Positions 625-39,257 of a DNA stretch of 40,241 bases are shown piece by piece. Source of the stretch: Myxococcota bacterium (lineage in GTDB: Bacteria > Myxococcota_A > Polyangia > Polyangiales > Houyiibacteriaceae). The stretch is taken from positions 1 through 40,241 of the forward strand of contig JALOQC010000006.1 of assembly GCA_025453555.1 (NCBI GenBank). Direction: 5' to 3'. The translations under genes and the position numbers were made by a program. A model generated the notes under the pieces. That model was not told where the DNA came from. It searched no databases and saw only the letters and a program-made list of their open reading frames with translations. Positions within the stretch are counted from its first letter, which is position 1, and each line of letters begins with the position of its first letter.

Positions 625-633
625 TGCTACTCT
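625..633 (+). promoter_or_regulatory. Extended -10 promoter element (TGCTACTCT)
   Basis: TGCTACTCT matches the TGnTAnnnT extended -10 form. The hexamer (628-633) ends 7 nt before the GTG at 641, so transcription should begin at or next to the start codon. The same arrangement occurs before several other genes in the window. No clear -35 hexamer is seen. Confidence 0.6.
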
Positions 634-640
634 CGATCGA

Positions 641-1876
641 GTGCGGGCGCTCGTCGCGGCCTTGATGGGGCTCTTGGTTCCGCGCGTGGTCTTCGCGGCC
701 TGCGAGACCCGCGAGGCGCCGCTCGTCGGCGTGACGCTCGAGCAGTGCGTCGAGGCCGACGCCGAGCACTGGCGGGTCTCGATCGAGCTCTCCACGGCAG
801 ACCTCGGGCTCGCGGTGTCCCGACCGAGCGAGCGCGCGCGGACGGTCGAGCGTTGGGTCGCGGAGTCGCCGGGGGTCCGGCTCGCGGTGCAGGCGGGGGA
901 CTTCGACTTCCCGAGCTACGCACCCGAGGGGCTCACGGTGGGCGAAGGCGAGGTGTGGTCGGACACCACCGACGACGGTGTGCACGCGCTGATCGGCTTC
1001 GACTCGCGTGGGGTCGGCGTGTTCGTCCCGCCTCGTCAAGTGGTGCCGGCGGAGACGTGGATGGACGACGTGGTCAGCGGCGTGGCGGTCCTCCGCGACG
1101 GGGTGCCGGTCGAGTGTGCGGGGCGCGGCTGTGAGCGGCGGTCTCGCACGGGGCTCGGGCTCGACGCGACCGGGCGGCGCTTGATCGCGGTGGTCGCGCT
1201 CGGCGATCGGCCCACGCGCCTCGGGGTCACCGACGCGGAGCTCGGCGCGTTGCTCCGCGAAGCGGGCGCGCACCACGGATTGCGGAGCGGTCAGGGCGCG
1301 TGGTCGGTGCTCTGGTCGGGCAGCGCGCTCGCGGTGCCTTCCAGCGACGGGGAGTCGCGGCCGACGGCGGCGTTTCTCGGGGTCGTCGATCGCGGCGGAG
1401 GGGCGGAGACGCGGCTGCGTGGGATCGTCGGCGTGGAGGGCATGCCCGAACGCGTGCTCATGGCGGCGCGGATCCGGGTGGAGTCGCTCGACGGACGTTT
1501 GGTCGCGGAGGGCGGCACACTCACGTCCGGCGCGTACTGGGAGTACACGCTGCCTGTGCGCGAGTACGTCGTCCGCGCGTCGCTCGCCGGCTACCGCACG
1601 GGCTGCAAGCTCTGCGTCGGGGTTCCGAGCAGCGACGTGTGGTGCAGCGTGTTCCTCACGCCGGGCGAGGGATCGCAGGTCTGCGCGCCGCCGCCGCGCA
1701 CGCTCGAGGTCGGGCCGTGGCCCGAGGCGATGGACGCCGGAGTGAGCGACGCGGGGGCCGACGCGGGCCCGCGCACGGGGAGCGTCAGCGGGTGCGCGGT
1801 CGGAGCCGAGGGACGCGGCTGGATCGTGGCGGTGATCGGGATCGGGGCGGGGGTGATGAGGCGGCGTCGACGATGA
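641..1876 (+). CDS. Phosphodiester-glycosidase-like secreted protein with MYXO-CTERM-like anchor
   Basis: GTG 641 is chosen over the in-frame GTG at 590 because it starts a clean signal peptide (VRALVAALMGLLVPRVVFA, then ACE) and sits 7 nt after a -10 element. The middle resembles the NAGPA/DUF2233 phosphodiester glycosidase fold: an AVQAGDFDFP segment like the family's NGxFFD, then RTGLGLDATGRRLIAVVALGD and a following helix like the family's LxELxxLLxxLGA. The family's LDGGGSS signature is replaced by RSGQGAWSVLW, so the catalytic site may be lost. A carboxypeptidase-regulatory-like beta domain with four Cys follows, then an Asp/Ala linker, SGC, a hydrophobic helix and five Arg. That tail matches the MYXO-CTERM sorting pattern, so surface anchoring is expected. 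The substrate is unknown. Confidence 0.72.
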   Translation: MRALVAALMGLLVPRVVFAACETREAPLVGVTLEQCVEADAEHWRVSIELSTADLGLAVSRPSERARTVERWVAESPGVRLAVQAGDFDFPSYAPEGLTVGEGEVWSDTTDDGVHALIGFDSRGVGVFVPPRQVVPAETWMDDVVSGVAVLRDGVPVECAGRGCERRSRTGLGLDATGRRLIAVVALGDRPTRLGVTDAELGALLREAGAHHGLRSGQGAWSVLWSGSALAVPSSDGESRPTAAFLGVVDRGGGAETRLRGIVGVEGMPERVLMAARIRVESLDGRLVAEGGTLTSGAYWEYTLPVREYVVRASLAGYRTGCKLCVGVPSSDVWCSVFLTPGEGSQVCAPPPRTLEVGPWPEAMDAGVSDAGADAGPRTGSVSGCAVGAEGRGWIVAVIGIGAGVMRRRRR

Positions 1877-1931: not shown

Positions 1932-3143
1932 ATGAGCCAGGTGCGGACGGGACTCCTGACGACCAGCGCCGGCGGCGAGATCGTGCTGCGGCGCGTGATG
2001 GTGCGCGTGGTGAGCGGGCCGTCGCGTGGGCGCGAGGCGCTGCTCGAAGAGGGCACGATGGTGCTCGGCAGCCACCCGGACGCGGACCTCGCCATCGAGG
2101 ATCCGACGGTGTCGCGCTTCCACGCGGAGCTCGGGCTGCTCGCGGACGGAATCCGCGTGCGCGATCTGGGATCGACGAACGGCACCTTCGTGGGCGAGTC
2201 GCGCATCGAGGTCGCGGTGCTCCCACCGGCGGCGGAGCTTCGGGTGGGCAAGAGCCGCATCGAGCTCACGCCGGCCGACGTGCCGGTGCCGGAGGCGCCG
2301 CCGGAGGCGACGCGCTTCGGTGGCCTGGTCGGGCAGAGCGCGGTGATGCGGCGCGTGTTCGGGTTGCTCGAAGGCGCGGCGGCGTCGAGCGCGCCGCTCC
2401 TGATCGAGGGCGAGGCGGGCACCGGGAAGAGCGAAGCCGCGGAGTCGGTGCATCGCGCGTCGACACGAGCGGCGGCGCCCTTCGTGGTGCTCGATCTCTC
2501 GGTGGCGAGCGACGTCGAAGGACACGTGGCGCGCGCGCAGGGCGGGACGTTGGTGCTCGATCGGCTCGAGCGTCTGTCGGCCCCGCAGGCGGCGGCGCTC
2601 GTCGCGATGCTCGACCGACGCGAGCGGGGCGAGCTCGACGTGCGCGTGATCGGGACGAGCCGCGCAGACCTGCGGCAGCGTGTCGAGGAAGGCGCGTTGC
2701 GGCGTGACCTCTACTTCCATCTCGCGGCGGTGCGGGTGGTGATGCCGCCGCTGCGCGAGCGCCGAGAGGATGCGCCGCTGCTGGTGGCGGAGCTCGCGTC
2801 GCGGCTCGGACATCCGGATCTCGGTCTGTCCGCGGAGGAGCTCGCGCCGCTCGCGACGCACGCGTTCGAAGGCAACGTGCGCGAGCTCGCGCGGCTGGTG
2901 GAGCAGCTCCTGAGCCAGACCGCGCGTGGCAGCGTGCCGCCTCCGCCGGTGCCGATGGAAGGCGAAGAGATGGCGGGGCTCCCGTTCAAGGAAGCGAAAG
3001 AGAAGCTCGTGGACGCGTTCGAGGCGCGCTACGTGGCGATGCTCCTCGCGCGCCACGAGGGGAACCTCTCACGTGCGGCTTCGGAAGCCGGGCTCGACCG
3101 GAATTACTTGGCCAGACTCGCGAAGAAACACGGATTGAGGTGA
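1932..3143 (+). CDS. FHA-AAA+-Fis-type regulator, enhancer-binding-protein-like but without GAFTGA
   Basis: 403 residues. An FHA domain occupies about residues 25-112, with VSRFHAEL at 60-67 and STNGTFV at 81-87, so phospho-threonine binding is expected. An AAA+ domain follows: Walker A GEAGTGKS at 160-167, a Walker-B-like strand GGTLVLDRLERL at 204-215 with Arg in place of the usual Glu after Asp, RRDLYFHL at 257-264 and GNVRELA at 314-320. A Fis-type helix-turn-helix ends the protein (about 373-403). The stretch that normally carries ESELFGHEKGAFTGA is missing: PFVVLDLSV runs almost directly to Walker B. Without GAFTGA it is unlikely to remodel sigma-54 polymerase in the usual way, so it may be a regulator controlled by a Ser/Thr kinase but independent of sigma-54. 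It converges on prfC with a 13-bp gap. Confidence 0.85.
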   Translation: MSQVRTGLLTTSAGGEIVLRRVMVRVVSGPSRGREALLEEGTMVLGSHPDADLAIEDPTVSRFHAELGLLADGIRVRDLGSTNGTFVGESRIEVAVLPPAAELRVGKSRIELTPADVPVPEAPPEATRFGGLVGQSAVMRRVFGLLEGAAASSAPLLIEGEAGTGKSEAAESVHRASTRAAAPFVVLDLSVASDVEGHVARAQGGTLVLDRLERLSAPQAAALVAMLDRRERGELDVRVIGTSRADLRQRVEEGALRRDLYFHLAAVRVVMPPLRERREDAPLLVAELASRLGHPDLGLSAEELAPLATHAFEGNVRELARLVEQLLSQTARGSVPPPPVPMEGEEMAGLPFKEAKEKLVDAFEARYVAMLLARHEGNLSRAASEAGLDRNYLARLAKKHGLR

Positions 3144-3156
3144 GCTTCTTCGTCGC

Positions 3157-4752
3157 TCATTTTTCCACGCCTGCGCGAATGGGCGCGGTCTCCAAGAACT
3201 TCCACTCCGCGTGATCGCGGGTTGCGCGCTCGAGCTCCCAGTCGTCGCGGAAGAGCGCGACGAGCGCGCCGTCCTGATCGTGGACCGCGAGGGGGATGCG
3301 GGCGGCGAGGAGCTCGTCGACCCGGGTGGTGCCTTCGATCCAACGCGCGTGCTGGAAGGGCAGGCGGTCGAAGGTGATCTTCGCGCCGTACTCGTGCTGC
3401 AGCCGGAACGTGAGCACGTCGAACTGGAGCTGACCGACCACGCCGCAGATCGGATCCTTCTCGCGGCCCGGCTCGGAGAAGAGCTGCACGGTGCCTTCTT
3501 CGGCGAGCTCGTGGATGCCCTTCTGCAGCTGCTTGCGCTTGAGCGGATCGAGCAGGACCACGCGGCCGAAGTGCTCCGGCGAAAAGCGCGGCACCGCATC
3601 GAAGCTCATCGGACCGTTCGTGCTGAGCGTGTCGCCGATGCGGAAGAGGCCGGGATCGTAGAGCCCGACGATGTCGCCCGCGTAGGCTTCGAGGATCGAC
3701 TCGCGCTCTTGCGCGAAGAACTGCTCGGCGCGGTTCAATCGGATCTCTTTGCCGAGGCGGTAGTGCTGCACGCGCATGCCGCCCTCGAACTTGCCGCTGA
3801 CGATGCGCGCGAAGGCGATCCGATCGCGGTGCGAGGGATCCATGTTCGCCTGCACCTTGAAGACGAAGCAGGAGAAGCGGTCGTCCTCGGGGGAGAGCTC
3901 GTTGCCGGCGGCGTCGAGGCGCGGGCCGGGCACGGGGCAGAGATCCTCGAACGCCTTGAGGAAGGGCTCGATGCCGAAGCTGTTGAGCGCGGAGCCGAAG
4001 AAGACGGGCGTGAGCTCGCCTGCGCGGAACTTGTCGAAGCTCCACTCTTCGCCGGCGCCGTCGAGCAGCTCGATCTCGCTGCGGAGCTGCTGCGCGGGCT
4101 CGCCGCCGAGCAGCGCGTCGACCTCGGCGCTCTCGAGATCCGCGATCTTCACCTCGGCCTTGGAGGCGTTGCCTTTGTCGCCGCGCTCGAAGCGCAGGAC
4201 CTTCTTGCCGTGGCGGTCGTAGACGCCTTGGAAGAGATCGCCGCTGCCGATCGGCCACGTGTACGGCACCGAGCGCATGCCGAGGACCTCCTCGACTTGG
4301 CTCATCAGCTCGAAGGGATCGCGCGCGGGGCGGTCGAGTTTGTTGATGAAGGTGACGACCGGGATGCCGCGCATGCGGCAGACGTGGAAGAGCTTGCGCG
4401 TCTGCGGCTCCACGCCCTTGGCGGCGTCGAGGATCATGATCGCGCAGTCCGCCGCGGTGAGCGTGCGGTAGGTGTCTTCGGAGAAGTCGTTGTGACCGGG
4501 CGTGTCGAGGAGGTTCCAGCGCAGGCCGTCCCACTCGAACTGGAGCACCGAGCTCGTGACGGAGATGCCGCGCTGCTTCTCCAGCTCCATCCAGTCGGAC
4601 GTGGCGGAGCGCTTGGACTTCCGGGACTTGACGGCACCGGCCATGTGAATCGCGCCTCCGTACAGGAGGAGCTTCTCCGTCAGCGTGGTCTTGCCCGCGT
4701 CCGGATGCGAGATGATGGCGAAGGTGCGCCGCTTGAGGTGCTCGCGCAGCAT
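3157..4752 (-). CDS. prfC: Peptide chain release factor 3
   Basis: RF3 is the translational GTPase that releases RF1/RF2 from the ribosome after termination. The 531 residues match the family's usual length (about 530). Visible motifs: G1 SHPDAGKTT near the N-terminus, the switch region with RGISVTSSV, G3 DTPGHNDFSEDTYRTL and G4 NKLDRPARDP, followed by the RF3-specific C-terminal region ending in the ERATRDHAEWKFL segment. Two in-frame ATGs exist, at 4764 (MPRL...) and 4752 (MLREH...). I chose 4752 because a TGCTACATG -10 element overlaps the upstream ATG, which would put the transcription start at the second one. The gene is divergent from the UbiB-like gene. Confidence 0.95.
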   Translation of the reverse strand: MLREHLKRRTFAIISHPDAGKTTLTEKLLLYGGAIHMAGAVKSRKSKRSATSDWMELEKQRGISVTSSVLQFEWDGLRWNLLDTPGHNDFSEDTYRTLTAADCAIMILDAAKGVEPQTRKLFHVCRMRGIPVVTFINKLDRPARDPFELMSQVEEVLGMRSVPYTWPIGSGDLFQGVYDRHGKKVLRFERGDKGNASKAEVKIADLESAEVDALLGGEPAQQLRSEIELLDGAGEEWSFDKFRAGELTPVFFGSALNSFGIEPFLKAFEDLCPVPGPRLDAAGNELSPEDDRFSCFVFKVQANMDPSHRDRIAFARIVSGKFEGGMRVQHYRLGKEIRLNRAEQFFAQERESILEAYAGDIVGLYDPGLFRIGDTLSTNGPMSFDAVPRFSPEHFGRVVLLDPLKRKQLQKGIHELAEEGTVQLFSEPGREKDPICGVVGQLQFDVLTFRLQHEYGAKITFDRLPFQHARWIEGTTRVDELLAARIPLAVHDQDGALVALFRDDWELERATRDHAEWKFLETAPIRAGVEK

Positions 4753-4761: not shown

Positions 4762-4770
4762 CATGTAGCA
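4762..4770 (-). promoter_or_regulatory. Extended -10 element of prfC (TGCTACATG)
   Basis: The minus strand reads TGCTACATG, then 9 nt, then ATG (4752-4750). The element contains the first possible prfC ATG, which argues that translation begins at the second ATG on a leaderless message. Confidence 0.5.
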
Positions 4771-4992: not shown

Positions 4993-5001
4993 TGCTACCA
5001 A
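4993..5001 (+). promoter_or_regulatory. Extended -10 element (TGCTACCAA)
   Basis: The hexamer TACCAA (4996-5001) is preceded by TGC and ends 9 nt before ATG 5011. It fits the leaderless pattern seen elsewhere, although its last base departs from the -10 consensus. Confidence 0.45.
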
Positions 5002-5010: not shown

Positions 5011-6307
5011 ATGCGAGCCGTGATGCTGACGGGCCGCTTCTTCCTCGTGGCGTGGGTCTTCTTCGCCGCGGGCGTGGTCTATCTCGCGCGCCGCGTCGCG
5101 ATCGGGCGCGCGGACAAGGCGCGCGTCGAGCGGCTGCGCGGCGAACTGCTCGCGAGCACCTTCCAGCGCCTCGGCGCGACCTACGTGAAGTTCGGGCAGA
5201 TCCTCTCCACGCGTCCGGACCTCGTGGGGCCGGGGATCACCGAGCCGCTCTCGCGCTTGCAGGATCAGGTCGCGCCGATTTCCTTCGCGGAGATCGCGCG
5301 GGTGCTCGACTCGGAGCTCGACGCGACCACGCGTGCGCGGCTCGTCTCGATCGAAGAGACGCCCATCGCGGCGGCTTCGGTCGCCCAGGTGCACCGCGCT
5401 TCACTCGACGACGGATCGAAGGTCGCGCTGAAGGTGCAGCGACCGCTCGCGCGTCTGCAGGTCGAACGCGATCTGGTGCTCTTGATGATGGGCGCGAAGC
5501 TCGTGAGCGTGGTGCCTTCGATTCGGCTCCTCTCCCTGCCCGGCGCGGTCGAACGCTTCGGCGAGGCGATGCGCGGCCAGCTCGATTTTCGTTTGGAAGC
5601 CGCGAACAACCGGCGCTTCGCGGAGAACTTCGCGGACGACGAGGGCATCGCGGTTCCGAAGCTCTTCGACGAGCTCTGCACCGAGCGCGTGCTTCATCGA
5701 GGGCGTGCGCGCGACGGAGCCGGAGAAGGTCGGCGGCGATCGGGTGGCGCTCGCCGCGCGCGGCTTGCGCTGCATCCTGAAGATGGTCTTCGAGGACGGC
5801 TTCGTTCACGCGGATCTGCACCCGGGGAACATCCTGCTCACGGCGGACGGTCGCGTGGTGCTCATCGATCTCGGGCTGGTCGCGGAGATCGACGACGAGC
5901 TGCGTGGGCCGTGGATCCAGACCTTCGTCGCGGTCTCGCAGGTCGACGGCAAGCTCGCGGCGAGCCTCTTCTATTCGCACGCGCCGTTCGTCGGGTCGGA
6001 CATCGACTACGCGGCCTTCGAGCGCGACGTGCTCGCGCACTTCCAGAGCTTCCACGGCAAGCCGCTGCACGAGCTGGAGGCGAGCCAGGTGCTCGCGGGG
6101 ATGATGAACATCCTGCGCAAGCACGAGGTGCAGGTCGATCCGGTGTTCACGGTGGTGAACCTCGCGATGCTCGTCGCGGAGGGGCTCGGCAAGCAGCTCG
6201 ATCCGAAGCTCGATCTGATCGCACACGCGGCGCCCTTTCTGATGAACGCCATCGCCAACGCGCCCCCGCCGAGGCCGCCGCGGCGCGAGGTCCCGGTCCT
6301 CCCGTGA
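5011..6307 (+). pseudogene. UbiB/AarF/ABC1-family atypical kinase, frameshifted
   Basis: The first part (from ATG 5011) has an N-terminal membrane segment, the family's KxGQ element YVKFGQILSTRPDLVGP (residues 58-74), the Ala-rich AAASVAQVHRA (120-130) and the Lys in VALKVQRP. It stays in register up to the Leu-His codons at about 5692-5697. The rest of the kinase continues in the next frame from about 5693: FIEGVRATEPEKV, the catalytic GFVHADLHPGN and the metal-binding VLIDLGLV, to a stop at 6307. Conserved family members usually have a few residues between VL and FIEG, so an 8-nt deletion (or other loss equal to 2 mod 3) near 5692 best explains the break. Family role: ATPases/kinases supporting isoprenoid-quinone lipid metabolism. 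It could be a true pseudogene or a sequencing/assembly error; the rest of the sequence is intact and unremarkable. Confidence 0.85.
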
Positions 6308-14456: not shown

Positions 14457-14918
14457 TCACTGACGAAAGCGTGGGCGGCCGTGGAGACGGCGCAGCGCGC
14501 GCTCGCAGAGCTTGGGTCCCGTTTCGTCCCATCCCTCGACCGGGAGCGTGATGTCGCAGGAGGCGTTCGGCAGACGCACGCGGAGTCGGCCTTCGGGTGG
14601 GCCGATCGATTGGCTGCCGATCGCACAACAGCCCGCGGCCACGAGATCGTCGCGCAGCGTCTCGAGGTCGGCCGTCGACAGGTCGCGCTCGACGTGCACG
14701 GAGTGGTTGCCTTGGGTGACGTTCGCTTCGAAGCGCGCGGCGCCTTCGCGCGTGATGGTGAAGCGCTCGACGCCCCATGCGTCCTGCACGCGCCATTCGA
14801 CCACGAGCCCGTCTTCGAGAGGCTCCGGCCAGGACGCGCGCTCCCACGTGCTCGGCTCTTCGGGCCCACAAGCGACGAGCAGCGACGGGACGAAGCAGAG
14901 AGCGACCCAGCCACGCAC
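14457..14918 (-). CDS. Small lipoprotein of unknown function
   Basis: 153 residues from GTG 14918, which gives a clear lipoprotein signal (RGWVALCFVPSLLVAC) and lies 6 nt after a -10 element. The mature part is a compact domain with the pattern LEDGLVVEWRVQDAWGVERF, RFEANVTQGNHSVHVERDLS and DLETLRDDLVAAGCC, and a Cys pair plus two more Cys towards the end that may form disulfides. The second half (EGRLRVRLPNASCDITLPVE) suggests a small beta-sandwich. I do not recognise the family. It is a single-gene unit, divergent from the kinase gene across a repeat-filled gap. Confidence 0.78.
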   Translation of the reverse strand: MRGWVALCFVPSLLVACGPEEPSTWERASWPEPLEDGLVVEWRVQDAWGVERFTITREGAARFEANVTQGNHSVHVERDLSTADLETLRDDLVAAGCCAIGSQSIGPPEGRLRVRLPNASCDITLPVEGWDETGPKLCERALRRLHGRPRFRQ

Positions 14919-14924: not shown

Positions 14925-14933
14925 ACGGTAGCA
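14925..14933 (-). promoter_or_regulatory. Extended -10 element (TGCTACCGT)
   Basis: The minus strand reads TGCTACCGT followed by 6 nt and the GTG start at 14918, so the message should be leaderless. This is one of the best fits to TGnTAnnnT in the window. Confidence 0.6.
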
Positions 14934-15011
14934 GGTTCGTGCGGTCCGCTCGCGTTCGTGGCCTTGGGGTTCGCGTGCGCCGGTACGAGCGCCGTCTGTG
15001 GTGTCCGTGCG

Positions 15012-15179
15012 CGCGTCGTCGGTGTGCGCGTCGTCGGCGTGCGCGTCGACGGTGTGCGCGTCGTCGGTGTGTGGCGTCGACGGTGTGCGCGTCGTCGGTG
15101 TGCGCGTCGACGGTGTGCGCGTCGACGGTGTGCGCGTCGACGGTGTGCGCGTCGTGGGTGTGCGCGTCGTGGGTGTGAG
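15012..15179. repeat. Noncoding 15-bp tandem array (about 11 copies)
   Basis: The unit GGTGTGCGCGTCGAC (variants ...GTCGTC, ...GTCGTG) is repeated about 11 times in the 341-bp gap between the divergent lipoprotein and kinase genes. One copy near 15067 (GGTGTGTGGCGTCGAC) has 16 bp and breaks every reading frame, so the array is not kept as coding sequence. No spacers are present, so it is not CRISPR. It is a likely variable-number locus and might affect the kinase promoter. Confidence 0.85.
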
Positions 15180-15259
15180 CGAGCATCGCTCGCGGGGCAT
15201 CTCGCCTCACGCGCCCGCTTTCTGGATCCCTTCGACATCCGTCCGGCACGATCGCCGAC

Positions 15260-17548
15260 ATGCCCTCGAGCTCCTCCGGCACCGTGATCGCGCCGCCCGT
15301 CAAGGGCGTGCCCGTCCCGATGGACGCCTCGATGCAGGCTCCGCGTGACGACGACTCGCCGCTTCTCTTGCGCGCCGCGCGATCCGTCGCGGCCGCGGGG
15401 CGCGCGCACACCGTGGTCGACGTGCTGCACGCGCGCGCGCTGCGGCACTATGCGGAGGGGCTCGAGCAGTTCCTCGCGTTGCGGCTCGGGTCCGTCGACG
15501 CGGCGGAGCTCGCCCTGCGCAAGGTCCGGGTCGTGGTCGCCGCGCACGAGAGCGACGAGCTGGTGCGACCGCCCGGCGTTCGCGCGCGGCTCTACCGGAT
15601 CGCGCGCGAGATCGCTCGGCGCGAGCGCGCCACCGAGGACGCGCTGCCCGCCCCGGTCGCGAGCCTCCCTTGGCGCGAAGGCGACGACGCGCGTCGTCAC
15701 GCGAAGCTGCAAGCGCTCCGCGAGACGCTCGATCCGATCGACGCCGAGCTCCTCGAGCTGCGCTACGCGCGCGAGCTGCGCCCGACCGAGCTCGCGTTCG
15801 TGGTGGAGCGCGACGTCGCGGAGGTGCTCGAGCATCTGCATGCCGCCACCGAGCGCGCCGCGAAGCTCGTGCTCGAGCGACCGGGCGAGCGGCTGCGTTC
15901 GCTCCTGCTCGAAGCCTTCGCGTTGCGTGGTCGTTCGCCGACGCTGCGCGACGAGGCGTTGCCGGCGGGTCCCGCGCCGCTCGCGCCGGGTGCGCTCGTC
16001 GGCGGGCGCTACCGCGTGCAGGCGCGCGTGGGCACGGGCGCGTTCGGCGACGTCTACCGTGCGGAGGACATCGAGGTCCCCGGTCACGTCGTCGCGCTGA
16101 AGCTGCTGCATCAGCCGTCGTACTCGGCGGACACCAAGCAGGCAGCGCTCCGCGAGCTGCGTCACCTCGCGAGCGTGTTCCATCCGAGCGTGGTCTCGCT
16201 CAAGGACCACGGCTGGTTCGACGGACGGCTCTGGTTCGTGATGCCCTGGTACGACGGGGAGACGCTCGAGTCGCGCCTGAACCGCGGGCCGCTCTCACGC
16301 GTCGAAGCGCGTCGCATCTTCGAGCCCCTCGCGCGCGCGCTCGCGGCGGTGCACGAGGCGGGGCTCCGGCATCAGGACGTGAAGCCGGAGAACGTCTTCC
16401 TCGCGAAGATGCCGGGCTTCGAGGACGACGTGCTCCCGGTGCTGATCGATCTCGGCGTCGCGGCGACGGACGCGGAGATGCTCGTCGCAGGCACGCCGAC
16501 CTACTTCGCGCCCGAGGTCGCGGCGCAGTTCGCGAGCGGGGTGACGGACAAGCCGCGGGTCACGAACAAAGCGGATGTCTTCAGCTTCGCGCTCGCGCTC
16601 CGCAACGCGCTCGAGCCGGACACGCAAGACGACGTGCCCGCGGGCGCGATCGAGTCGTTCATCGAGGCGCGCGCGGTGTCGGTGCCCGCGCTGCCGGAGA
16701 CGCGCTCGCTGCGCTTCTTGCGCGGCGCGCTCCAGCGCTGGATGAGCCTCGATCCGGAGGCGCGACCGACCGCGACGGAGCTCGCGAACGAGCTCGCGGT
16801 GCTCACCGCGCCCGAGGATCGTCGTCGCAAGCGGCGCGCGCTCTGGCGGTGGCTGCTGCCCACGTTGATCGTGCTCGGCGCGCTCGCTTCGGCGGCGGTG
16901 CTCCACGTGCGCGCGCTCGCGGCGGAGGAGACCGCGCGGGCGGCCGCGCGCGTCGCGGCGGTGCGCGAGGATCTCGAAGCGACGGAGCTCGAACGGCGCC
17001 GGCTCGCGGCCGACGCGGACTCGATCCGCGCGACGCTGGAGAACGAGCGGCTCGGGCGCGAGGAGCTGCAGTCGCGGCTGGTGGACGCGAGCGCGAGCCT
17101 CAACGCGCGCCGCGCGGAGCTCGCGCGGGTCCGCGAGCAGGTGGTCGCGCTCGAGCGCGAGAAGGGCACGCTCGAAGAAGCGCGCGCGAGCCTCGAGACG
17201 ACGTTGCGAGTGCGGAGCACGGAGCTCGCGACGCTGCAGGGGCAGCTCGGCGCGATCGGCGCGGAGCTGGAGCGCGAGCGGGGCACGCGACAGCGGCTTC
17301 GCGAAGAGCTGTCGCGGGTCGAGGGAGCACGCGACGACCTCGAGGCGCAGATCGCGAGCGAGCGTGGGCGACGTGCGGCGGCGGACGCGCGGGCGGCGGA
17401 GCTGGAGCGCGAGCTCGACGCGGCGATTCGCGCGCGGCAGGCCGCGGAGCGTGCGCTGCGCGATGCGCGAGCGGCGCCGAGCGCGGTGCCCGTGGTGCCG
17501 GATGTGCCGGACTCGAGCGCCGACGGTTTCGAAGTGCCGTTCGAGTGA
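15260..17548 (+). CDS. Fusion of a sigma-factor-like domain, Ser/Thr kinase, membrane helix and long coiled coil
   Basis: 762 residues. Residues about 45-215 read like an ECF sigma factor: region-2-like VDAAELALRKVRVVVAAHES and RARLYRIAREIARRERA, then region-4-like LDPIDAELLELRYARELRPT and a following helix-turn-helix-like stretch. A protein kinase follows from about 249: GTGAFGDVYRAED (glycine loop), ALKLLH (Lys near 279), HQDVKPENV near 371 (HQD for HRD), LIDLGVAA near 395 (DLG for DFG) and GTPTYFAPE near 411. The core residues (Lys, catalytic Asp, Asn, metal Asp) are present, so it is probably active. A membrane helix (LLPTLIVLGALASAAVL, about 532-548) and a Glu/Arg-rich coiled coil (about 553-740) complete it. 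The sigma resemblance is by pattern only. Confidence 0.85.
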   Translation: MPSSSSGTVIAPPVKGVPVPMDASMQAPRDDDSPLLLRAARSVAAAGRAHTVVDVLHARALRHYAEGLEQFLALRLGSVDAAELALRKVRVVVAAHESDELVRPPGVRARLYRIAREIARRERATEDALPAPVASLPWREGDDARRHAKLQALRETLDPIDAELLELRYARELRPTELAFVVERDVAEVLEHLHAATERAAKLVLERPGERLRSLLLEAFALRGRSPTLRDEALPAGPAPLAPGALVGGRYRVQARVGTGAFGDVYRAEDIEVPGHVVALKLLHQPSYSADTKQAALRELRHLASVFHPSVVSLKDHGWFDGRLWFVMPWYDGETLESRLNRGPLSRVEARRIFEPLARALAAVHEAGLRHQDVKPENVFLAKMPGFEDDVLPVLIDLGVAATDAEMLVAGTPTYFAPEVAAQFASGVTDKPRVTNKADVFSFALALRNALEPDTQDDVPAGAIESFIEARAVSVPALPETRSLRFLRGALQRWMSLDPEARPTATELANELAVLTAPEDRRRKRRALWRWLLPTLIVLGALASAAVLHVRALAAEETARAAARVAAVREDLEATELERRRLAADADSIRATLENERLGREELQSRLVDASASLNARRAELARVREQVVALEREKGTLEEARASLETTLRVRSTELATLQGQLGAIGAELERERGTRQRLREELSRVEGARDDLEAQIASERGRRAAADARAAELERELDAAIRARQAAERALRDARAAPSAVPVVPDVPDSSADGFEVPFE

Positions 17549-17680: not shown

Positions 17681-18331
17681 TCACTCCGCGCCGACGTGGG
17701 AGTACTTGAGGATCGCGCGCCAGAGCGGATCGCGTCCCTGGCCGGTCTCGGCGGAGAACCCGAACACGCGGCGGCCGGTCACGCGCGCGACCTCTTCGAC
17801 CGCGAGCTTCTGCTGGTTCTTGGGCAGCTTGTCGAGCTTCGTCGCGACGACGATCGGCGTGCGCCCGATGTGCTCGAGGAACTCGATCAGCTCCGCGTCG
17901 TCCTCTTCGGGTCCACGTCGCGCGTCGACGATGACCACCACCGCGCGGAGGCCGGCGCGGCTGCGCAAGAAGCCTTCGATGAGCGGGCCCCAGCTCCGCC
18001 GCTCGGTCTTGCTGCGCTTGGCGTAGCCATAGCCGGGTAGATCGACGAGATCCATCTCGCCCAGCACGGGCTCTCCCTCGGTCGGCACGCGCAGCCGGAG
18101 CCGGAAGAGGTTGATGCCGCGGGTCGCGCCGGGGGTGGAGCTCGTGCGCACGAGCTTCTTGCGGTTCGTGAGCGCGTTGATGAGCGACGACTTGCCGACG
18201 TTGCTTCGCCCCGCGAACGCGACCTCGGCGAGCACCGGCGCGGGGATCTGATCGAGCGCGTTGGCCGCCGCGATGAACTCCGCTTCGAGCACTTCGATCG
18301 AAGGCTTCGTGGGCTTCGGCGGGGTAGTCAT
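17681..18331 (-). CDS. engB: Ribosome-biogenesis GTPase EngB/YsxC/YihA
   Basis: 216 residues, the usual length for this essential TRAFAC GTPase involved in 50S ribosome assembly. Motifs in order: G1 GRSNVGKSSLINAL, G2 region STPGATRGIN, G3 DLVDLPGYGYAK, G4 ATKLDKLP and G5 FSAETGQG. The start ATG 18331 lies 7 nt after a TGCTAACAG promoter element, with no Shine-Dalgarno sequence. The N-terminal extension is Pro/Thr/Lys-rich and short. It is convergent with the kinase fusion gene; the 132-bp gap (17549-17680) holds short direct repeats of the GCTCGCGTCGTCACGG type but no gene. Confidence 0.96.
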   Translation of the reverse strand: MTTPPKPTKPSIEVLEAEFIAAANALDQIPAPVLAEVAFAGRSNVGKSSLINALTNRKKLVRTSSTPGATRGINLFRLRLRVPTEGEPVLGEMDLVDLPGYGYAKRSKTERRSWGPLIEGFLRSRAGLRAVVVIVDARRGPEEDDAELIEFLEHIGRTPIVVATKLDKLPKNQQKLAVEEVARVTGRRVFGFSAETGQGRDPLWRAILKYSHVGAE

Positions 18332-18338: not shown

Positions 18339-18347
18339 CTGTTAGCA
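18339..18347 (-). promoter_or_regulatory. Extended -10 element of engB (TGCTAACAG)
   Basis: TGCTAACAG on the minus strand, hexamer TAACAG at 18344-18339, then 7 nt to ATG 18331. The last base departs from consensus, but the spacing to the start codon is the same as at the other sites. ACCTG...CAGGT flanks it as a short palindrome. Confidence 0.55.
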
Positions 18348-18394: not shown

Positions 18395-20008
18395 TCAGCG
18401 AAGCGCATCGCGCCACGCGCCGAGGCGGGTGATCGTGGGCGCGAAGAAGGTCGTGTCTTCGAGCGCGTACTCGTGTGTGCGTCCCGAGCGCTCTCGACGA
18501 CAGCTCTCGTCGCTCACGAGCTGACCGAGCGCTTCTTGCACCGTGCGCAGCGGCACGCCGAGCGCCTCCGCCACGTCCCGCGCGCTCGCGCGTCCGCCAT
18601 TCTCCGCGAGGAAGCGGAGCACCAGCTCTCGGAGATCGGTCGCGGTCGTCGGATCCGGGATCGCGATCGGAGCCGCGAGGCGCAGCTTCAGCGCGTCGCC
18701 CTCGCGCACGACCTCGCCGCGCGCGCCGAGCTCTTGCCGCATCCGATACAACAAGGTCCTCAGGACGCCGCCGTGCTTGTCGGGCGCGTACGCGAAGCCG
18801 TAGACGCGGCGGAACAGCTCCTCCTCCGTCGCGCTCATCGAGGGCGTCACGAGGAGCGCGACGAGCGCTGCGAGCACACGTTCGTGTTGGAGGTCGTAGC
18901 TCGCCGGGAGATCACGACCGAGCAAGCCGAGCCCCGCGACCCAAGTGCGGCGCGCCGCGCGTCCGGGCTCGGCCCACACCACCACGCCTGCGCGCTCGAG
19001 GCCGGCGCCGAGCAACGACGCGCTGCCCACGAGACCGTCCATGCCGTGTGGCGCGCGGCGCCCTTCGCCCGCGAGCCAGGCGCAGAGCTCCGCGGGCTCG
19101 GGCGCCGACGGATCGACGAGCGCTCGCACGCGCGCGCTCTCCCGCGAGAGGAACGGCCACGGCGCGAGCGCCCGAACGCCGTCGAGCCGCGCGCGATCGC
19201 CACGCGAGGCCGCATCGAGCATCGCCGCGAGCTCGTTCGACGCGGCACGCCATGCGCCCGAGCCTTCCAGTCCGACGGCGCGCGCGGCGCCCCCGACGAG
19301 CACCAGCTCCCACGCGATCCAGCCCGACCAGGCAGCCGGCGTGACGCGCGCGAGCGCGTCGAGGATGCGCGACGCGAGGTACCAGCGCGCGTCGAAGCGA
19401 CGCACCCGCGCGAGCGCGAGGTGCGCGACGTACTCCGTGACGAGGTAGCCGTCCGTGCGCGCCATGCGCGAGCCGAGGCGCGCGCGATCGCGCGCGGCGT
19501 CGAGGCGACCTTCGCTCAGCTCCGCGAGCGCGGCGATCGCTTCCGCTTCCGCGAGCAGGCCCGGGACGTCGCGAGAACGCTGCGCCGCGGCGACCAACGT
19601 CGTGACGTCGATCGCACGCTCGTGTGCGAGGTCGTCCCATGCGGCGACGATCGGATGCGCGGCGGTCGACTCGCTCGCGCGACGAACCAGCGCGAGTCGT
19701 GTCGGTTGGCCAGCGAGCCACGCGTGCAACGCGACGTCCACGAGCCCGCGCGCGAGCTCGCGAGGGTCGCCTTCCAATCGCGCGCCGGACGCGAGGCTCG
19801 CGAGCAGCGCGTCGGGGATCCCCGCGCCGCGCGATCCGGTGGCGCGAACGCGGGCCTCCTCGGAGACGAGCAGCTCGATCAGCGCGGCGGCCGCGAACGA
19901 CTTCGCATCGGTCGCAGCTCCACGCGGCGCGGACGCGAGCCGCGCGAGCGCGACGTCGAGCTCGCCGCGACGCGCGGAGTCCAGCGGCGCTTCGGTGGCG
20001 ACGTTCAT
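18395..20008 (-). CDS. Large transcriptional regulator with C-terminal winged-helix domains
   Basis: 537 residues from ATG 20008, chosen because the ATGA overlap with the kinase gene's stop (20005-20007) couples translation. The first 380 residues are an all-helical, Ala/Arg-rich region reminiscent of TPR-type repeats. Near residues 393-425 an OmpR/SARP-like winged helix is seen (EEELFRRVYGFAYAP, then VLRTLLYRMRQELGA). A second HTH lies at about 456-495 (ASARDVAEALGVPLRTVQEA), ending with a wing-like RSGRTHEYALED. This combination resembles large SARP/LAL-type activators without the ATPase. It is the last gene of an operon with the Ser/Thr kinase, its probable upstream input. The 63-bp gap to engB holds only the engB promoter. 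Confidence 0.75.
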   Translation of the reverse strand: MNVATEAPLDSARRGELDVALARLASAPRGAATDAKSFAAAALIELLVSEEARVRATGSRGAGIPDALLASLASGARLEGDPRELARGLVDVALHAWLAGQPTRLALVRRASESTAAHPIVAAWDDLAHERAIDVTTLVAAAQRSRDVPGLLAEAEAIAALAELSEGRLDAARDRARLGSRMARTDGYLVTEYVAHLALARVRRFDARWYLASRILDALARVTPAAWSGWIAWELVLVGGAARAVGLEGSGAWRAASNELAAMLDAASRGDRARLDGVRALAPWPFLSRESARVRALVDPSAPEPAELCAWLAGEGRRAPHGMDGLVGSASLLGAGLERAGVVVWAEPGRAARRTWVAGLGLLGRDLPASYDLQHERVLAALVALLVTPSMSATEEELFRRVYGFAYAPDKHGGVLRTLLYRMRQELGARGEVVREGDALKLRLAAPIAIPDPTTATDLRELVLRFLAENGGRASARDVAEALGVPLRTVQEALGQLVSDESCRRERSGRTHEYALEDTTFFAPTITRLGAWRDALR

Positions 20009-21549
20009 TCGCGAGGCCACCACGAGGTCGGAGGCAGGGAAGGGCGCGCGTCGGTGCGGGCGTCGCTGCGCGTGTCGGTGGCTTGCTCCGGCGAAGGCGC
20101 GGCGGTGCGTTTCGATCGAGCGCGCGGCGTGCGCCGGAGGCCCCGTGATTCGGACCGCGACGAGTCCGCATCGACGCCGTCCCCGGTCGCGACGACATCG
20201 CCGGTGACACCGTCACGAGCACCGACACCGACACCGACATCGACAGCCCCGACACCGACACCGACAGCCCCGACACCGACAGCCCCGACACCGACAGCCC
20301 CGACACCGACATCGACAGCCCCGACACCGACACCGACAGCCCCGACACCGACAGCCCCGACACCGACAGCCCCGACACCGACAGCCCCGACACCGACACC
20401 GTGGTCACCGACGCGTGCGCTCGCCCCTTCGACGTCCGCGTCGTCGGCGGTGTTCGGGAGCGGCGCCGAGACCACAGGCTCCCACGCCGGCTCCGACTCC
20501 CGCGTCGCTGTGATCCCCACACCCAGTCCGAGCAGCCCCAACGCTCCGATCGCCGCCGCGCGCGCGGCACGCCAACGCGTCGAACTGCGCGCGCGTTTCC
20601 TCAGCACGTCCTGAAGTCGTCGATCGCGTGCCTCTCGAACCCGCGAGCGCAAGGCAGCCCGACGATCGTCGAAGAGCTCCGCCATCAGCTCCTCGAGCCG
20701 CTCGTCCTCGTCGAGCGCGTCCTCGATCGCGCGCAGCCGCTGCGCGACCTCGCGCGCGCTCGCTGGTCGCGACTCCTTCGACTTCGCGAGCAGATCGAAG
20801 ACCAGCTCCACGAGCTCCGGGGGTGCGTCGCGGCGCAGCGCGCCGAGATCCGGCGGATCGTCCTCGACGATGCGTCGCGCGACCTCGGCGTTGGTCGTGC
20901 CTTGGTAGAGGCGCTCACCCGTGAGCAGCTCCACCAGTACGACCCCGAGCGCGAAGAGATCCGTGCGTCGATCGAGCGCACCGCCTTCGATCTGCTCCGG
21001 CGCCGTGTAGCCGACCTTGCCCTTCACCACGCCGATCGAGGTCGCGTCGCCGTGACGACGATCCGCGAGCGCGATCCCGAAATCCGTCAGCCGCACCCCA
21101 CCGTCGAAGCCGATCAACAAGTTCTGCGGCGACACGTCGCGGTGCACCACACCGAGCAGGGTGCCGTCGAGCGACTGCAGCTCGTGCACCGCGTGCAGCC
21201 CGTCGGCCGCCTGACGCATCACGTCGAGCGCGATCTCGAGCGGGATCGGCTCGCCCCCGAGACCGCGGATGAGCTCGCCCACGTGCACGCCCTCCACGAA
21301 ATCCATCACGAGGTAGGGGCCCTCGTCGTCCTCGCCGACGTCGAGCACGCCCACGACGTTCGGGTGCCGCAAGAGGCCCGCGAGCCGCGCCTCGTCGAGG
21401 AACGTCGCGCGTGTCTGCGCGTCGCGCGCGTGCGGCCGCTTCTTCACGTAGAGCCGCTCGTACGAGCCGTCGTGACGCATCACGACCTCGACGCGCCCGA
21501 GCCCGCCCTTCGCGAGCTCGAAGAGCGGCACGTAGCTCGGGGTGCTCAC
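20005..21549 (-). CDS. Membrane-linked Ser/Thr protein kinase with Gly/Val repeat tail
   Basis: 514 residues from GTG 21549, which overlaps the upstream stop as GTGA. The N-terminal kinase domain is complete: a glycine-rich start LAKGGLGRVEV (12-22), Lys in LYVKKRP (34-39), HRDVSPQN at 136-143, DFG at 156-158 and APEQ at 183-186. A single membrane helix is predicted at about 333-350 (AARAAAIGALGLLGLGVGIT). The C-terminal part holds a low-complexity Gly/Val/Ala/Asp array and a basic, Ser/Thr-rich end. The HRDVSPQN form is common in myxobacterial Pkn kinases. It sits between a TPR membrane protein and a winged-helix regulator with both junctions overlapping, so the three are expected to act in one phosphorylation pathway. 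Confidence 0.93.
   Translation of the reverse strand: MSTPSYVPLFELAKGGLGRVEVVMRHDGSYERLYVKKRPHARDAQTRATFLDEARLAGLLRHPNVVGVLDVGEDDEGPYLVMDFVEGVHVGELIRGLGGEPIPLEIALDVMRQAADGLHAVHELQSLDGTLLGVVHRDVSPQNLLIGFDGGVRLTDFGIALADRRHGDATSIGVVKGKVGYTAPEQIEGGALDRRTDLFALGVVLVELLTGERLYQGTTNAEVARRIVEDDPPDLGALRRDAPPELVELVFDLLAKSKESRPASAREVAQRLRAIEDALDEDERLEELMAELFDDRRAALRSRVREARDRRLQDVLRKRARSSTRWRAARAAAIGALGLLGLGVGITATRESEPAWEPVVSAPLPNTADDADVEGASARVGDHGVGVGAVGVGAVGVGAVGVGAVGVGVGAVDVGVGAVGVGAVGVGAVGVGVGAVDVGVGVGARDGVTGDVVATGDGVDADSSRSESRGLRRTPRARSKRTAAPSPEQATDTRSDARTDARPSLPPTSWWPRE
20219..20402 (-). repeat. In-frame tandem array encoding Gly-Val-Ala/Asp repeats
   Basis: About twelve imperfect copies of a 15-bp unit (plus strand ACCGACAGCCCCGAC) with 6-bp variants. 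All lengths are multiples of three, so the kinase's C-terminal repeat region stays in frame. Contrast this with the frame-broken array at 15012. Confidence 0.85.
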
Positions 21550-22394
21550 GGCGCGCCTCCGAGCGTCCACACGCGACCCCACACCGGATCGTCGACGCGC
21601 TCGACGTCGCGGTCCCGCCGCGAGAGGCCGATCGCGAGCCCGAGCCCGACTGCGACCACGAACGCGCCCGCGACCGAGAGAGCAACCCGTCGTCGGCGCG
21701 GCGGATCTTCGGAGAGCACGAGCGCCGGCACGTGCAGCTCCACCGCCGACGTGTCGCCCGGCTCGAGCCGGATCGCGCGCTCCACGCTCCACTCGCCCGC
21801 CGCGACGCGCACGTGGCGCGTGCCAGGATCGACGGCGACGATCACCACGCCGCTCCGGACGAGCTCGCCGTGAAGCGCGCCGTCGATGCGCACCTCCGTC
21901 GGACGATTCGTCTCCACGCGCACGCGAATCTCCGCGATCGACGCGCGCGAGGTCTCGAGCCGTTCGCGCACGATGCGCGCGCGCTCGGCAGAGAGCGCTC
22001 CGTACGCGCCGGCCGCGACCTCTGCGAAGGTCTCGCTCGCCTCGCGATGACGCCCGAGGTCCGCGAGCACGGCGCCGAGGTTGAACGCGGACTCCATGCG
22101 CGGCTCGGCGGCGAGCGACCGACGGAGGAGCCGCTCCGCGTCCGCGAGGCGACCTTCGTGGCGTGCGCGCTCGGCTTCGTCGAAGTCCGCCACCGCCGAC
22201 GCGGACACGCTCGAGGACGCGGCGCTCGAGGACGCGGCGCTCGAGGACGCGGCGCTCGAGGACGCGGCGCTCGAGGACGACCTGCCGGAGGTGCCCGATG
22301 GCGCGGCGGCTGCGCGCGGGTCTTGCGCGAACGCGGACGAGCTCGCGACCAGCGCGAGCGACGACGCGAAACAGGCTGCGCGGAAGGGCGACAC
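21546..22394 (-). CDS. Exported TPR-containing membrane protein with PEGA-like domain
   Basis: 282 residues from GTG 22394, which gives a signal peptide (SPFRAACFASSLALVASSSAFA) and lies 8 nt after a -10 element. A Ser/Ala linker encoded by five 15-bp repeats follows (about residues 36-65). Then come TPR-like helices (AERARHEGRLADAERLLRRS, ESAFNLGAVLADLGRHREAS), a PEGA-like strand region (ETNRPTEVRIDGALHG and GTRHVRVAAGEW), and a C-terminal membrane helix (VALSVAGAFVVAVGLGLAIG) with a charged tail. It heads the operon with the kinase, so it could be a periplasmic sensor or scaffold whose tail reaches the cytoplasmic kinase. The topology is inferred. Confidence 0.82.
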   Translation of the reverse strand: MSPFRAACFASSLALVASSSAFAQDPRAAAAPSGTSGRSSSSAASSSAASSSAASSSAASSSVSASAVADFDEAERARHEGRLADAERLLRRSLAAEPRMESAFNLGAVLADLGRHREASETFAEVAAGAYGALSAERARIVRERLETSRASIAEIRVRVETNRPTEVRIDGALHGELVRSGVVIVAVDPGTRHVRVAAGEWSVERAIRLEPGDTSAVELHVPALVLSEDPPRRRRVALSVAGAFVVAVGLGLAIGLSRRDRDVERVDDPVWGRVWTLGGAP

Positions 22395-22402: not shown

Positions 22403-22411
22403 AGGATAGCA
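22403..22411 (-). promoter_or_regulatory. Extended -10 element (TGCTATCCT)
   Basis: TGCTATCCT on the minus strand, then CGATCGGC, then GTG at 22394. The sequence TCCTCGATCG is nearly the same as TCTCGATCGA downstream of the -10 element at 625, so the match extends beyond the hexamer. Confidence 0.65.
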
Positions 22412-24910: not shown

Positions 24911-26242
24911 ATGACCGAGAAACTCCGATTCGGACGACGTGGATTCCTCGCCGGAGCGTGCGCGACCTGCGGGCTCGCCGGGGCCTCCGCGCTCGTGCCA
25001 TTCCAGCGCTTGCTGGCCGACCCGCTCCCCGAGCGACGCTTCGTCGGCTTCTACTTCTCGGGCGGCTGGGACGTGCTCTCGCACGCCGACGCGCGCGATC
25101 CGTCACGGCGTTACGGCAGCGAGCTGAACGTCGGCACCGACCTACTCCCGCCCGAGTTTCAGGACCCGATCGCCGTCAGCCTCGGTGGCCGAGAAGTGCT
25201 GTGGGGCGCCGCCATGCGCGAGCTCGTCCGCCACGCGGAGGTCGCCACGATCTTCCGCGGCGTGAACATGAACACCGTCGCGCACCCCACCGGTCGCGCG
25301 TACGTGAACACCTTCATTCCACCCGCCGGCGTCGCGGCCAAAGGTGACTCTCTCGGCACGCGCATGTCGTCCGCCGCGCGGCGCGACGACCTCGTGCTCC
25401 CGAGCGTTTCGGTCGGCATGCCCGCCTACAACCTCGCGTTCGGCCCCGAGCTCACGGGGCTCGGCCTCTCGCGCGTGACCGAGGTGCGCGACCTGCTGCG
25501 CCCGCTCGGCCCGACCTTCGACGACGACGTCGCGGCCCTCCTCGCGCAGGCTCGCGAAGAGAGTGGCTCCTGCCTCGGCCCCGCCTACACCCGCGACCGC
25601 CCCGACGCGCAGCTCGCCGAGGCGCGCGAGCGCGTGCAGGCGCTCTTCGACCGCGGCCTCGACGCGGAGCTCGACCTCACCCAACAGCCCGCGCTCCGCA
25701 CGCGCTACGGCTTCACCAACGGCGCCGACTCGCGCGACCCGCGAGTGCGCGCGGCGATCACCCACCAACTCCTCGCGACCGGTCTCACTCGCACGGTCGC
25801 GGCCACGCTGGTGGACGGAATCGATTCACACCGCGACTGGGGCACCGTCCACCCGCAGCGTCTCAAAGTCGGTTTCGACGCGATGGCGGTCCTGCTCGAC
25901 GATCTTCGCGAGACCGATCCGAACCTCGAGAGCACCACGGTGATCGCGTTCAGTGAGTTCGCGCGCACACCACGAATCAATGGCACTTCAGGCCGCGATC
26001 ACTGGTTCGCCAACTCCTTCCTCGTCTTCGGCGGGAACCTCAAGCGCGGCGTGTTCGGCGAGACGGTGGAGGACACCCTCGGCCTGCGCGCGGTCGACCC
26101 CGTGACCGGCCGCGCCGCCGAGGACGGCGTCGTCATTCGCCCCGAGCACATCGGCGCCACCCTCGCGGCCGCGGCGGGCATCGATCCCGAACCGTTCCGC
26201 TCCACCGTGCTCGACGCTTGGATCGAAGGAGGTCGCTCGTGA
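24911..26242 (+). CDS. Tat-exported DUF1501 protein
   Basis: 443 residues. ATG 24911 follows GGAG with a 6-nt gap. The N-terminus has a twin-arginine signal (RFGRRGFLAGACATCGLAGA), as is usual for DUF1501 proteins, which are exported folded. The body has the family's pattern: FVGFYFSGGWDVLSHAD, FRGVNMNTVAHPTGRAYVN, and near the C-terminus TVIAFSEFARTPRINGTSGR followed by DHW and NSFLVFGGNLK. DUF1501 belongs to the alkaline-phosphatase/sulfatase-like superfamily. In Planctomycetota and Myxococcota it is nearly always paired with haem-containing PSD/DUF1588 proteins, as here. The enzymatic role is unknown. Its last base pairs overlap the next start (GTGA). Confidence 0.92.
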   Translation: MTEKLRFGRRGFLAGACATCGLAGASALVPFQRLLADPLPERRFVGFYFSGGWDVLSHADARDPSRRYGSELNVGTDLLPPEFQDPIAVSLGGREVLWGAAMRELVRHAEVATIFRGVNMNTVAHPTGRAYVNTFIPPAGVAAKGDSLGTRMSSAARRDDLVLPSVSVGMPAYNLAFGPELTGLGLSRVTEVRDLLRPLGPTFDDDVAALLAQAREESGSCLGPAYTRDRPDAQLAEARERVQALFDRGLDAELDLTQQPALRTRYGFTNGADSRDPRVRAAITHQLLATGLTRTVAATLVDGIDSHRDWGTVHPQRLKVGFDAMAVLLDDLRETDPNLESTTVIAFSEFARTPRINGTSGRDHWFANSFLVFGGNLKRGVFGETVEDTLGLRAVDPVTGRAAEDGVVIRPEHIGATLAAAAGIDPEPFRSTVLDAWIEGGRS

Positions 26243-34630: not shown

Positions 34631-36043
34631 TCAGCGGCGGCAGGCGCCCGCGTACGCGACCGACATGCCTGCGTTCGCGGCGTTGCACGCGTTGCCGTAC
34701 GTGCGGCCGTCGCAGCCGCAGACGGGATCGTAGAGCGCGATGCACGCCTCGGGGCGCGCGCTGCACACGCCGACGTCCGCCGCGCCGCACGCGGCCTCCG
34801 CCGAGAACGCGCAGAAGCTCCCCTCGGGGCAGCTCAGCGCACCGTTCCGCGCGCACGCGTCGCCGAGCTCGAGCGCGCACTCGCCCTCGGACGCGACGCT
34901 CACGCCCGCCGCCGCGGCCTCGCACGGATTGCCGTACGTGTTGCCGTCGCAGCCGCAGACCGGGAAGCCGATGCGCGTGCACGCGCTCGGACGCTCGACG
35001 CACTCGCCCGCGCCGCCGCACGCGCTCGCCTGGCAGTACTGACCTTCGCTGCACTCGTCGTTCGTGGTGCAGCCCGCCGCCGCGCACTCGCCGCTCGCTG
35101 CGACGCTGACGCCGTGGCTCGCCGCCTCGCACGCGTTGCCGTACGTGCGGCCGTCGCAGCCACAGACCGGATCGACGAGCGCGATGCACGCCTCGGGGCG
35201 CGTCTCGCAGGTGCCCGGACGATCCGTCGCGCCGCACATCGCCTCGGGAGCGAACGCGCAGAACGTGCCCTCGGGGCACACCGGCAGCCCACGACTTCCG
35301 CACGCCGCGCCCGTCTCGATCTCACACGCGCCCTCGTACGCGACGCTCGTGCCCGCGCCCGCCGCGTTGCAGCGGTTGCCGTAGGTGCGGCCGTCACAGC
35401 CGCAGACCGGCATGTACTCGCGCGTGCAGATCTCGGGGCGCGTGCGGCACTCGCCCGCCCCACCGCAGGTGCCCTCTTCGGCGTGGTGGCAGTACGCGCC
35501 TTCCGCGCAGTTCGCGTTCGTCTCGCAGCGCGCGTCCGGATCCGTGCACTCGCCGCCGGTGCGGCAGACGAGGCGGAGGTGGTAGCTCGCCGCGGTCGGG
35601 ATGCCGAAGCGCATGTAGCGGTAGGTCGACGCGACGACGAGGTACTCGCCCGCGTCGAGCGGCCGCTGGATGCAGCTGTTGAGCGTGCCCGAGCCGCAGT
35701 CGTCGTTCTGCGCGACGAGCTGCCAACCGCGGCGCGTCGCGCGGTAGAGCAGCACGTACGTGTCGTCACCGGCGCGGCTCGCGAGGTCGACGAACGTGTC
35801 GCCGCAGCCCGCCTCGGTCGTGAACGTCCACGTGTGGTACGGCACGGCCGCCGTCAGCCGGCGCTCCTGCACCTCGCACCACGGGAGCTCACCCTGCGCG
35901 ACGCCCCGGCCGTCCGCGCGATCGTCGCGCCGCAGCTCGAGCTCGTCCGTCATCAGGACCTCGCCGTCCTTCGCCGCACCGCCGGGCTCCGCTGCACAAG
36001 CCGCGACGAACCCGATGCACCCCATCATCCAAAGCTTCTTCAT
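34631..36043 (-). CDS. Lipoprotein with PPC-like domain and four Kazal-type protease-inhibitor domains
   Basis: 470 residues. The signal is MKKLWMMGCIGFVAAC, a lipobox. Residues about 60-160 resemble a pre-peptidase C-terminal (PPC) beta domain (HTWTFTTEAGCGDTFVDLAS, SYHLRLVC). Four Kazal modules follow, each with VCGCDGxTYGNxC and a closing G-x-C (EYMPVCGCDGRTYGNRC, VDPVCGCDGRTYGNAC, GFPVCGCDGNTYGNPC, YDPVCGCDGRTYGNAC), separated by Cys-rich spacers of two alternating kinds. Kazal domains inhibit serine proteases by presenting a reactive loop, so a surface protein that blocks foreign proteases is likely. Each loop has a different residue before the CGC core, which suggests different targets. 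It is a single-gene unit with its own terminator. Confidence 0.93.
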   Translation of the reverse strand: MKKLWMMGCIGFVAACAAEPGGAAKDGEVLMTDELELRRDDRADGRGVAQGELPWCEVQERRLTAAVPYHTWTFTTEAGCGDTFVDLASRAGDDTYVLLYRATRRGWQLVAQNDDCGSGTLNSCIQRPLDAGEYLVVASTYRYMRFGIPTAASYHLRLVCRTGGECTDPDARCETNANCAEGAYCHHAEEGTCGGAGECRTRPEICTREYMPVCGCDGRTYGNRCNAAGAGTSVAYEGACEIETGAACGSRGLPVCPEGTFCAFAPEAMCGATDRPGTCETRPEACIALVDPVCGCDGRTYGNACEAASHGVSVAASGECAAAGCTTNDECSEGQYCQASACGGAGECVERPSACTRIGFPVCGCDGNTYGNPCEAAAAGVSVASEGECALELGDACARNGALSCPEGSFCAFSAEAACGAADVGVCSARPEACIALYDPVCGCDGRTYGNACNAANAGMSVAYAGACRR

Positions 36044-38329: not shown

Positions 38330-38471
38330 GTGCGGGGCATAGCTCCAGAGGAGGCCGCCTGGGCGCGCCTCGTCCGATCGTTCGAGGGGATTCGCGAGCT
38401 GCCTACCTCGCGGTCGTCACGAGAAGCGGTCGAGGCGGAGCTCCGGGAGAAGCGCGCCCGCGCAGCGCGAC

Positions 38472-39251: not shown

Positions 39252-39257
39252 ACTATA
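39252..39257 (-). promoter_or_regulatory. -10 element TATAGT
   Basis: TATAGT, the closest match to TATAAT in this window, ends 7 nt before GTG 39244. A TG dinucleotide lies 2 nt upstream of the hexamer. It supports a leaderless start. Confidence 0.6.

Follow-up and report, generated by a model that had tools for sequence, protein, structure and literature searches.

Bacterial leaderless (TA-led) genes are marked by a TANNNT hexamer some 12 bp ahead of the start codon, according to the main text of Zheng et al. 2011 (PMC3160421). Among delta-Proteobacteria the same text counts 8 of 33, in which leaderless genes make up 15.8% on average, and it describes a TG extension for several low-GC genomes; the names Sorangium, Myxococc-, Anaeromyxobacter and Stigmatella are absent from it. 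For Deinococcus-Thermus, a published study (PMC12340547) describes a -10 region adjoining ORFs and the expression of leaderless mRNA, tested by experiment, for about 30% of ORFs. Among the titles and abstract openings of the open-licence literature we found no report of leaderless genes in myxobacteria, and the open-licence literature yielded no start-site maps for Polyangiales. The leaderless transcriptome of Mycobacterium tuberculosis, a high-GC organism, has reportedly been start-mapped, with -10 elements of the TANNNT type and with leaderless starts at both GTG and ATG.

Myxobacteria combine large size and complex development with a wealth of natural products. We analyzed a stretch of 40,241 nucleotides, referred to as the window (contig C69), from a Myxococcota draft genome, probably of the order Polyangiales. 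The draft comprises 8.33 Mb in 699 contigs, is 89% complete and has a GC content of about 71%. A first-pass annotation of this DNA had proposed that extended -10 promoters stand directly before start codons, so that the messages would begin at the start codon, and that this is a general rule of the genome.

Methods

The own-genome sample comprised 45 stretches, the window included, with a total of 545,656 bp. Genes were called with a home-made codon model in place of a published gene finder; the model is blind to start signals, and for each called gene every in-frame candidate start nearby was listed. A gene was considered leading when it was divergent from, or more than 60 nt away from, the upstream gene (n=271 in the own-genome sample), and 58 closely packed operon genes of the same sample served as the comparison set. 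Genome-wide counts compared the signal pattern TGCTANNNTN{5,10}RTG with the phase-matched spacing control TGCTANNNTN{23,28}RTG. A reversed-pattern control was discarded in favour of this same-phase control, since GC-rich DNA contains ATCGT-type words far more often than TGCTA.

Order-wide ortholog sets were built from the best 30 of 57 matches for EngB (29 non-own loci, 27 used) and the best 30 of 52 for RF3, to which four named loci were added (33 non-own loci, 30 used; two duplicates and one locus without upstream sequence left out). For UbiB, 17 of 19 non-own loci were used (one duplicate and one locus without a start left out), and for the rplB control 29 of the 30 taken from 52 matches (one duplicate out, own genome in). 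Pooled sites numbered 114, made of 50 from the own genome and the remainder from the related genomes G176, G148 and G094.

Results

TGCTA elements in the window

TGCTA occurs seven times over both strands of the window. Six of these occurrences, all of them where the first-pass annotation had placed them, end 6, 7, 7, 8, 9 and 9 nt ahead of their start codons; the seventh, at 24911 on the minus strand, is antisense and lies over the start of gene 24911 (+). The elements and their genes are as follows.

625..633, plus strand: extended -10 element TGCTACTCT, 7 nt before GTG 641; the same-genus ortholog has TATGAT at equal spacing
641..1876, plus strand: NAGPA-type phosphodiester glycosidase gene with a GTG start (Pfam PF09992)
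4762..4770, minus strand: TGCTACATG element, 9 nt before ATG 4752
3157..4752, minus strand: peptide chain release factor 3 (RF3) gene (PF00009, PF16658)
4993..5001, plus strand: TGCTACCAA element, 9 nt before ATG 5011; TGCTACC is retained in the same-genus ortholog, where the flanks have diverged
5011..6307, plus strand: gene that we take to be UbiB-like (ABC1-type kinase); orthologs 49-86% identical
14925..14933, minus strand: TGCTACCGT element, 6 nt before GTG 14918
14457..14918, minus strand: predicted lipoprotein gene, N-terminus MRGWVALCFVPSLLVACG; lipobox LVAC directly after GTG 14918, judged by eye
18339..18347, minus strand: TGCTAACAG element, 7 nt before ATG 18331
17681..18331, minus strand: GTPase gene (Pfam MMR_HSR1, PF01926), presumably of the EngB/YsxC type involved in ribosome biogenesis
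22403..22411, minus strand: TGCTATCCT element, 8 nt before GTG 22394
21546..22394, minus strand: gene with weak TPR matches; N-terminus at GTG 22394 signal-peptide-like, by eye
39252..39257, minus strand: TATAGT hexamer, 7 nt before GTG 39244; recovered by the blind scan too
38336..38341, minus strand: weak TATGCC preceding GTG 38329; unsupported

The complete TGnTAnnnT form is found at three of the six TGCTA elements, those of gene 641 (TACTCT), gene 14918 (TACCGT) and gene 22394 (TATCCT), and the final T is missing in the other three, at RF3 4752 (TACATG), UbiB 5011 (TACCAA) and EngB 18331 (TAACAG). The two hexamers without TGCTA that had been proposed are both present, TATAGT as described; for TATGCC, no ortholog of the gene at GTG 38329 was found among the same-genus loci, and one gene call set its start at 38314. 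The start codons of RF3, EngB and UbiB agree with those of their homologs, those at 641 and 22394 with signal-peptide-like N-termini, and that at 14918 with the lipobox; the N-terminus of gene 641, MRALVAALMGLLVPRVVFA, reads by eye as a signal peptide that opens directly at GTG 641. The operon genes at 26239, 29341, 32593 and 37507 carry sequences of the GGAGG/GAGGAGG type at normal spacing, in line with the Shine-Dalgarno sequences that had been reported for them. An Rfam scan and a tRNA scan of the window gave no matches.

The closest named relatives of the window RF3 are 75-78% identical and all belong to MAGs labelled Myxococcota, Myxococcales (including 'Myxococcales bacterium SG8_38') or 'Deltaproteobacteria'; all further relatives have at most 56% identity. 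An actinobacterial source, which the GC content had first suggested, was rejected on the basis of these relatives. The reading frame of the UbiB-like gene (5011-6307, +) is broken near 5690-5705 by a frameshift in the draft contig that may be genuine or a sequencing artefact; in the same-genus ortholog the frame stays open over 453 aa. Other features of the window include a GC-rich near-repeat array of a GTGTGCGCGTCGTCG-type unit at 15005-15180, which precedes the kinase gene starting at 15260, and genes at 1932-3143 (+), 15260-17548 (+) and 20005-21549 (-) for a protein of the FHA plus sigma-54 activator kind and for a pair of Ser/Thr kinases of eukaryotic type, classes of protein typical of myxobacteria. 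The protein coded at 34631-36043 (-) has four stretches of the Kazal-type protease inhibitor, a domain found mainly in animals.

Position of the box in the genome

Counting the motif against the starts of the genome, as the first-pass annotation had suggested, gave a sharp peak. Among the 271 leading genes of the own-genome sample, the first T of TAnnnT lies at -12, -13, -14 and -15 in 12, 12, 12 and 9 cases (45 altogether), at -16 to -22 in one case in total, and farther out in 0-6 cases per offset. Counted per gene, 43 of the 271 have TAnnnT at -12 to -15, compared with 3-9 (about 6) in control bands of equal width, and 82 have any TA at -12 to -16, compared with 15-36 (about 25), so that the excess over background amounts to roughly 15-20% of leading genes. 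Strict, unmoved starts give the same picture as the listing of candidate starts. TAnnnT at -12 to -15 was found in none of the 58 closely packed operon genes of the sample. Over the whole own genome, RTG follows TGCTANNNT at 5-10 nt in 164 places and at the phase-matched distance of 23-28 nt in 29 (binomial p 4.5e-24).

Anatomy of the box

Both the 50 own sites and the 114 pooled sites give the consensus TAnnnT, with G at -2, T at -3 and C after the hexamer. The TG extension, which the six TGCTA elements of the window have by definition, is present in 17/50 own sites and 31/114 pooled sites, while TG at 11 other offsets has a mean of about 5/114 and a maximum of 15; the TGnTAnnnT form initially described thus applies to part of the sites, and the common core is TAnnnT. 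Start codons at the own sites are ATG (28), GTG (19) and TTG (3), and 36 of these 50 sites sit at the start picked by coding potential alone.

A Shine-Dalgarno core precedes 4/50 box genes of the own genome and 114/321 of the others (p 3.3e-5), and the depletion at box genes goes in the same direction in three relatives (p 0.029, 0.013 and 0.0044). With so many boxless genes carrying this core, and with the counts among leading genes given above, 'a general rule of this genome' was too strong a description. The reported lack of -35 boxes appears to apply to most sites. TTG at -24 to -22, that is, at a spacing of 16-18 nt, was found in 9/114 pooled sites where 1.6 were expected; all nine lack the TG extension, and the best match to TTGACA has a mean of 2.74 compared with 2.50 in shuffles (sd 0.07). 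Putative -35 boxes consequently appear to be rare rather than absent, and the TG extension may act as a stand-in for them. Box genes in operon-type spacing numbered 6/35 in G176 and 2/17 in G148; the positional peak of G148 is weaker (10/89 compared with a mean of about 2).

Conservation in relatives

In G166, the sole same-genus genome found, the orthologs of RF3, UbiB, EngB and gene 641 keep the box at similar spacing with diverged flanks, the hexamer of gene 641 being TATGAT in place of TACTCT; this comparison of ortholog starts excludes 14918, 22394, 38329 and 39244. Two other loci of G166, L254 and L270, taken up by paralogy, have TGCTAACC..ATG and TACAGT..ATG close before the start codon.

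In the order-wide sets, TA with its T at -11 to -18 was found in 17/27 EngB orthologs (1-3 in other 8-nt bands), 19/30 RF3 orthologs (2-8 in other bands) and 9/17 UbiB orthologs (1-4 in other bands), the remaining 8/17 UbiB orthologs being without it. For the rplB control, TA at -11 to -18 was present in 3/29 and a Shine-Dalgarno core in 23/29. In RF3 the distance of the box tends towards about 15-19 nt, which makes a short leader of a few nt likelier than none for the predicted RF3 message.

Spread across the phylum

Signal counts exceeded control counts in all 29 drawn genomes of the own class, with ratios of 1.4-8.0 (median 2.4) and p<0.01 in 26/29. For the 111 genomes from elsewhere in the phylum, the median ratio is 1.1, with p<0.01 in 24/111; outside the own class, ratios over 3x were found in families f21, f28, f29 and f37, and pattern counts with the spacing control gave no signal excess in families f14, f12 and f16, all these counts resting on a pattern that requires TGCTA and could miss a genome preferring another -10 element. 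Two f14 genomes read directly (G086 and G007) had no positional peak. Among families with several genomes, the strongest pooled signal was that of f8 (G094, G130 and G099), in the own class, with 654 compared with 149.

Discussion

The box has a fixed position before the start codon, excludes the Shine-Dalgarno sequence, is restricted to leading genes and is conserved in relatives, and together these observations strongly support the leaderless placement of -10 promoters proposed for the window. We consider it very probable, at about 0.9, that the boxes are sigma-70-type -10 promoters abutting start codons, and that a minority of genes would consequently produce leaderless messages, or messages with a leader of a few nt, that are independent of Shine-Dalgarno sequences. 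A sigma factor of the sigma-70 (housekeeping) type would recognize TAnnnT, often with TGn in front, and RNA polymerase would initiate at the start codon or within a few bases of it. The resulting message would be translated without Shine-Dalgarno contact, presumably by ribosomes that initiate on a 5'-terminal start codon. Roughly 15-20% of unit-leading genes would use this arrangement, and operon-internal genes and most other genes would have Shine-Dalgarno or other leadered starts. Several observations count against this reading: the few box genes with operon-type spacing in G176 and G148, the weaker peak of G148, the greater distance of the RF3 box and the UbiB orthologs that have no box.

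Could the boxes be genuine -10 elements whose true start codons lie farther downstream, behind ordinary leaders? The choice of starts is uncertain in DNA of 71% GC, and our home-made gene calls differed from the first-pass annotation at several starts. Against this, a signal peptide or lipobox opens right at 641, 14918 and 22394, the homology of RF3, EngB and UbiB extends to the start, and most own-genome sites coincide with starts chosen by coding potential only, so we regard downstream starts as improbable. Exclusion of the Shine-Dalgarno sequence and fixed spacing fit leaderless messages. It is very improbable that the TA box is a translation-side feature, such as an AU-rich ribosome entry site or a region of low structure near the start, rather than a promoter. 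Other groups do have AT-rich signals upstream of their genes, as the text of Zheng et al. 2011 (PMC3160421) records, but an element acting on translation should occur in operon genes as well, and its absence from the operon-internal genes of the own genome points to a promoter. The fixed TA and T of the hexamer, together with TG in the extended position, likewise have the shape of a promoter.

Chance, with scattered TGCTA or TAnnnT and starts picked to fit, deserves almost no weight. The first-pass annotation did pick its starts after seeing the box, but the blind sample is sharp at -12 to -15 and flat elsewhere, and this peak, the genome-wide counts and the conservation of the box in relatives already refute such scatter.

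Beyond the promoter reading, selection might have kept the leaderless starts of translation genes such as RF3 and EngB order-wide, as leaderless messages would differ from others in how they compete for 30S, 70S and initiation factors, and such starts would link the expression of these genes to ribosome pool status with no regulator needed; we consider this rather unlikely. Provided that leaderless starts are used by a sixth of leading genes, annotated gene starts could be corrected by means of the box, constructs for pathway expression should keep the -10 element against the start codon, and myxobacteria would offer a further Gram-negative test bed in which leaderless translation takes place alongside Shine-Dalgarno translation.

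Leaderless promoter placement is known from other bacteria, and its predicted occurrence in myxobacteria is class-wide and well conserved. These genes resemble those reported from Mycobacterium tuberculosis in high GC, in a TANNNT-type -10 element and in the use of both GTG and ATG starts, and they differ in belonging to another phylum and in being predicted from sequence, where that organism is said to be start-mapped. The -10 motif set against the ORF is shared with Deinococcus-Thermus (PMC12340547), from which our case differs by its phylum, by the lower share of genes and by being predicted from DNA sequence, the Deinococcus-Thermus case having been tested by experiment. The TA-led genes in the main text of Zheng et al. 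2011 (PMC3160421) have the same core at the same distance, lack a Shine-Dalgarno sequence and form a minority of genes, and the 15.8% average given there for delta-Proteobacteria is near the share in the present genome; unlike the low-GC genomes for which that text describes the TG extension, the present genome combines this extension with a GC content of 71%.
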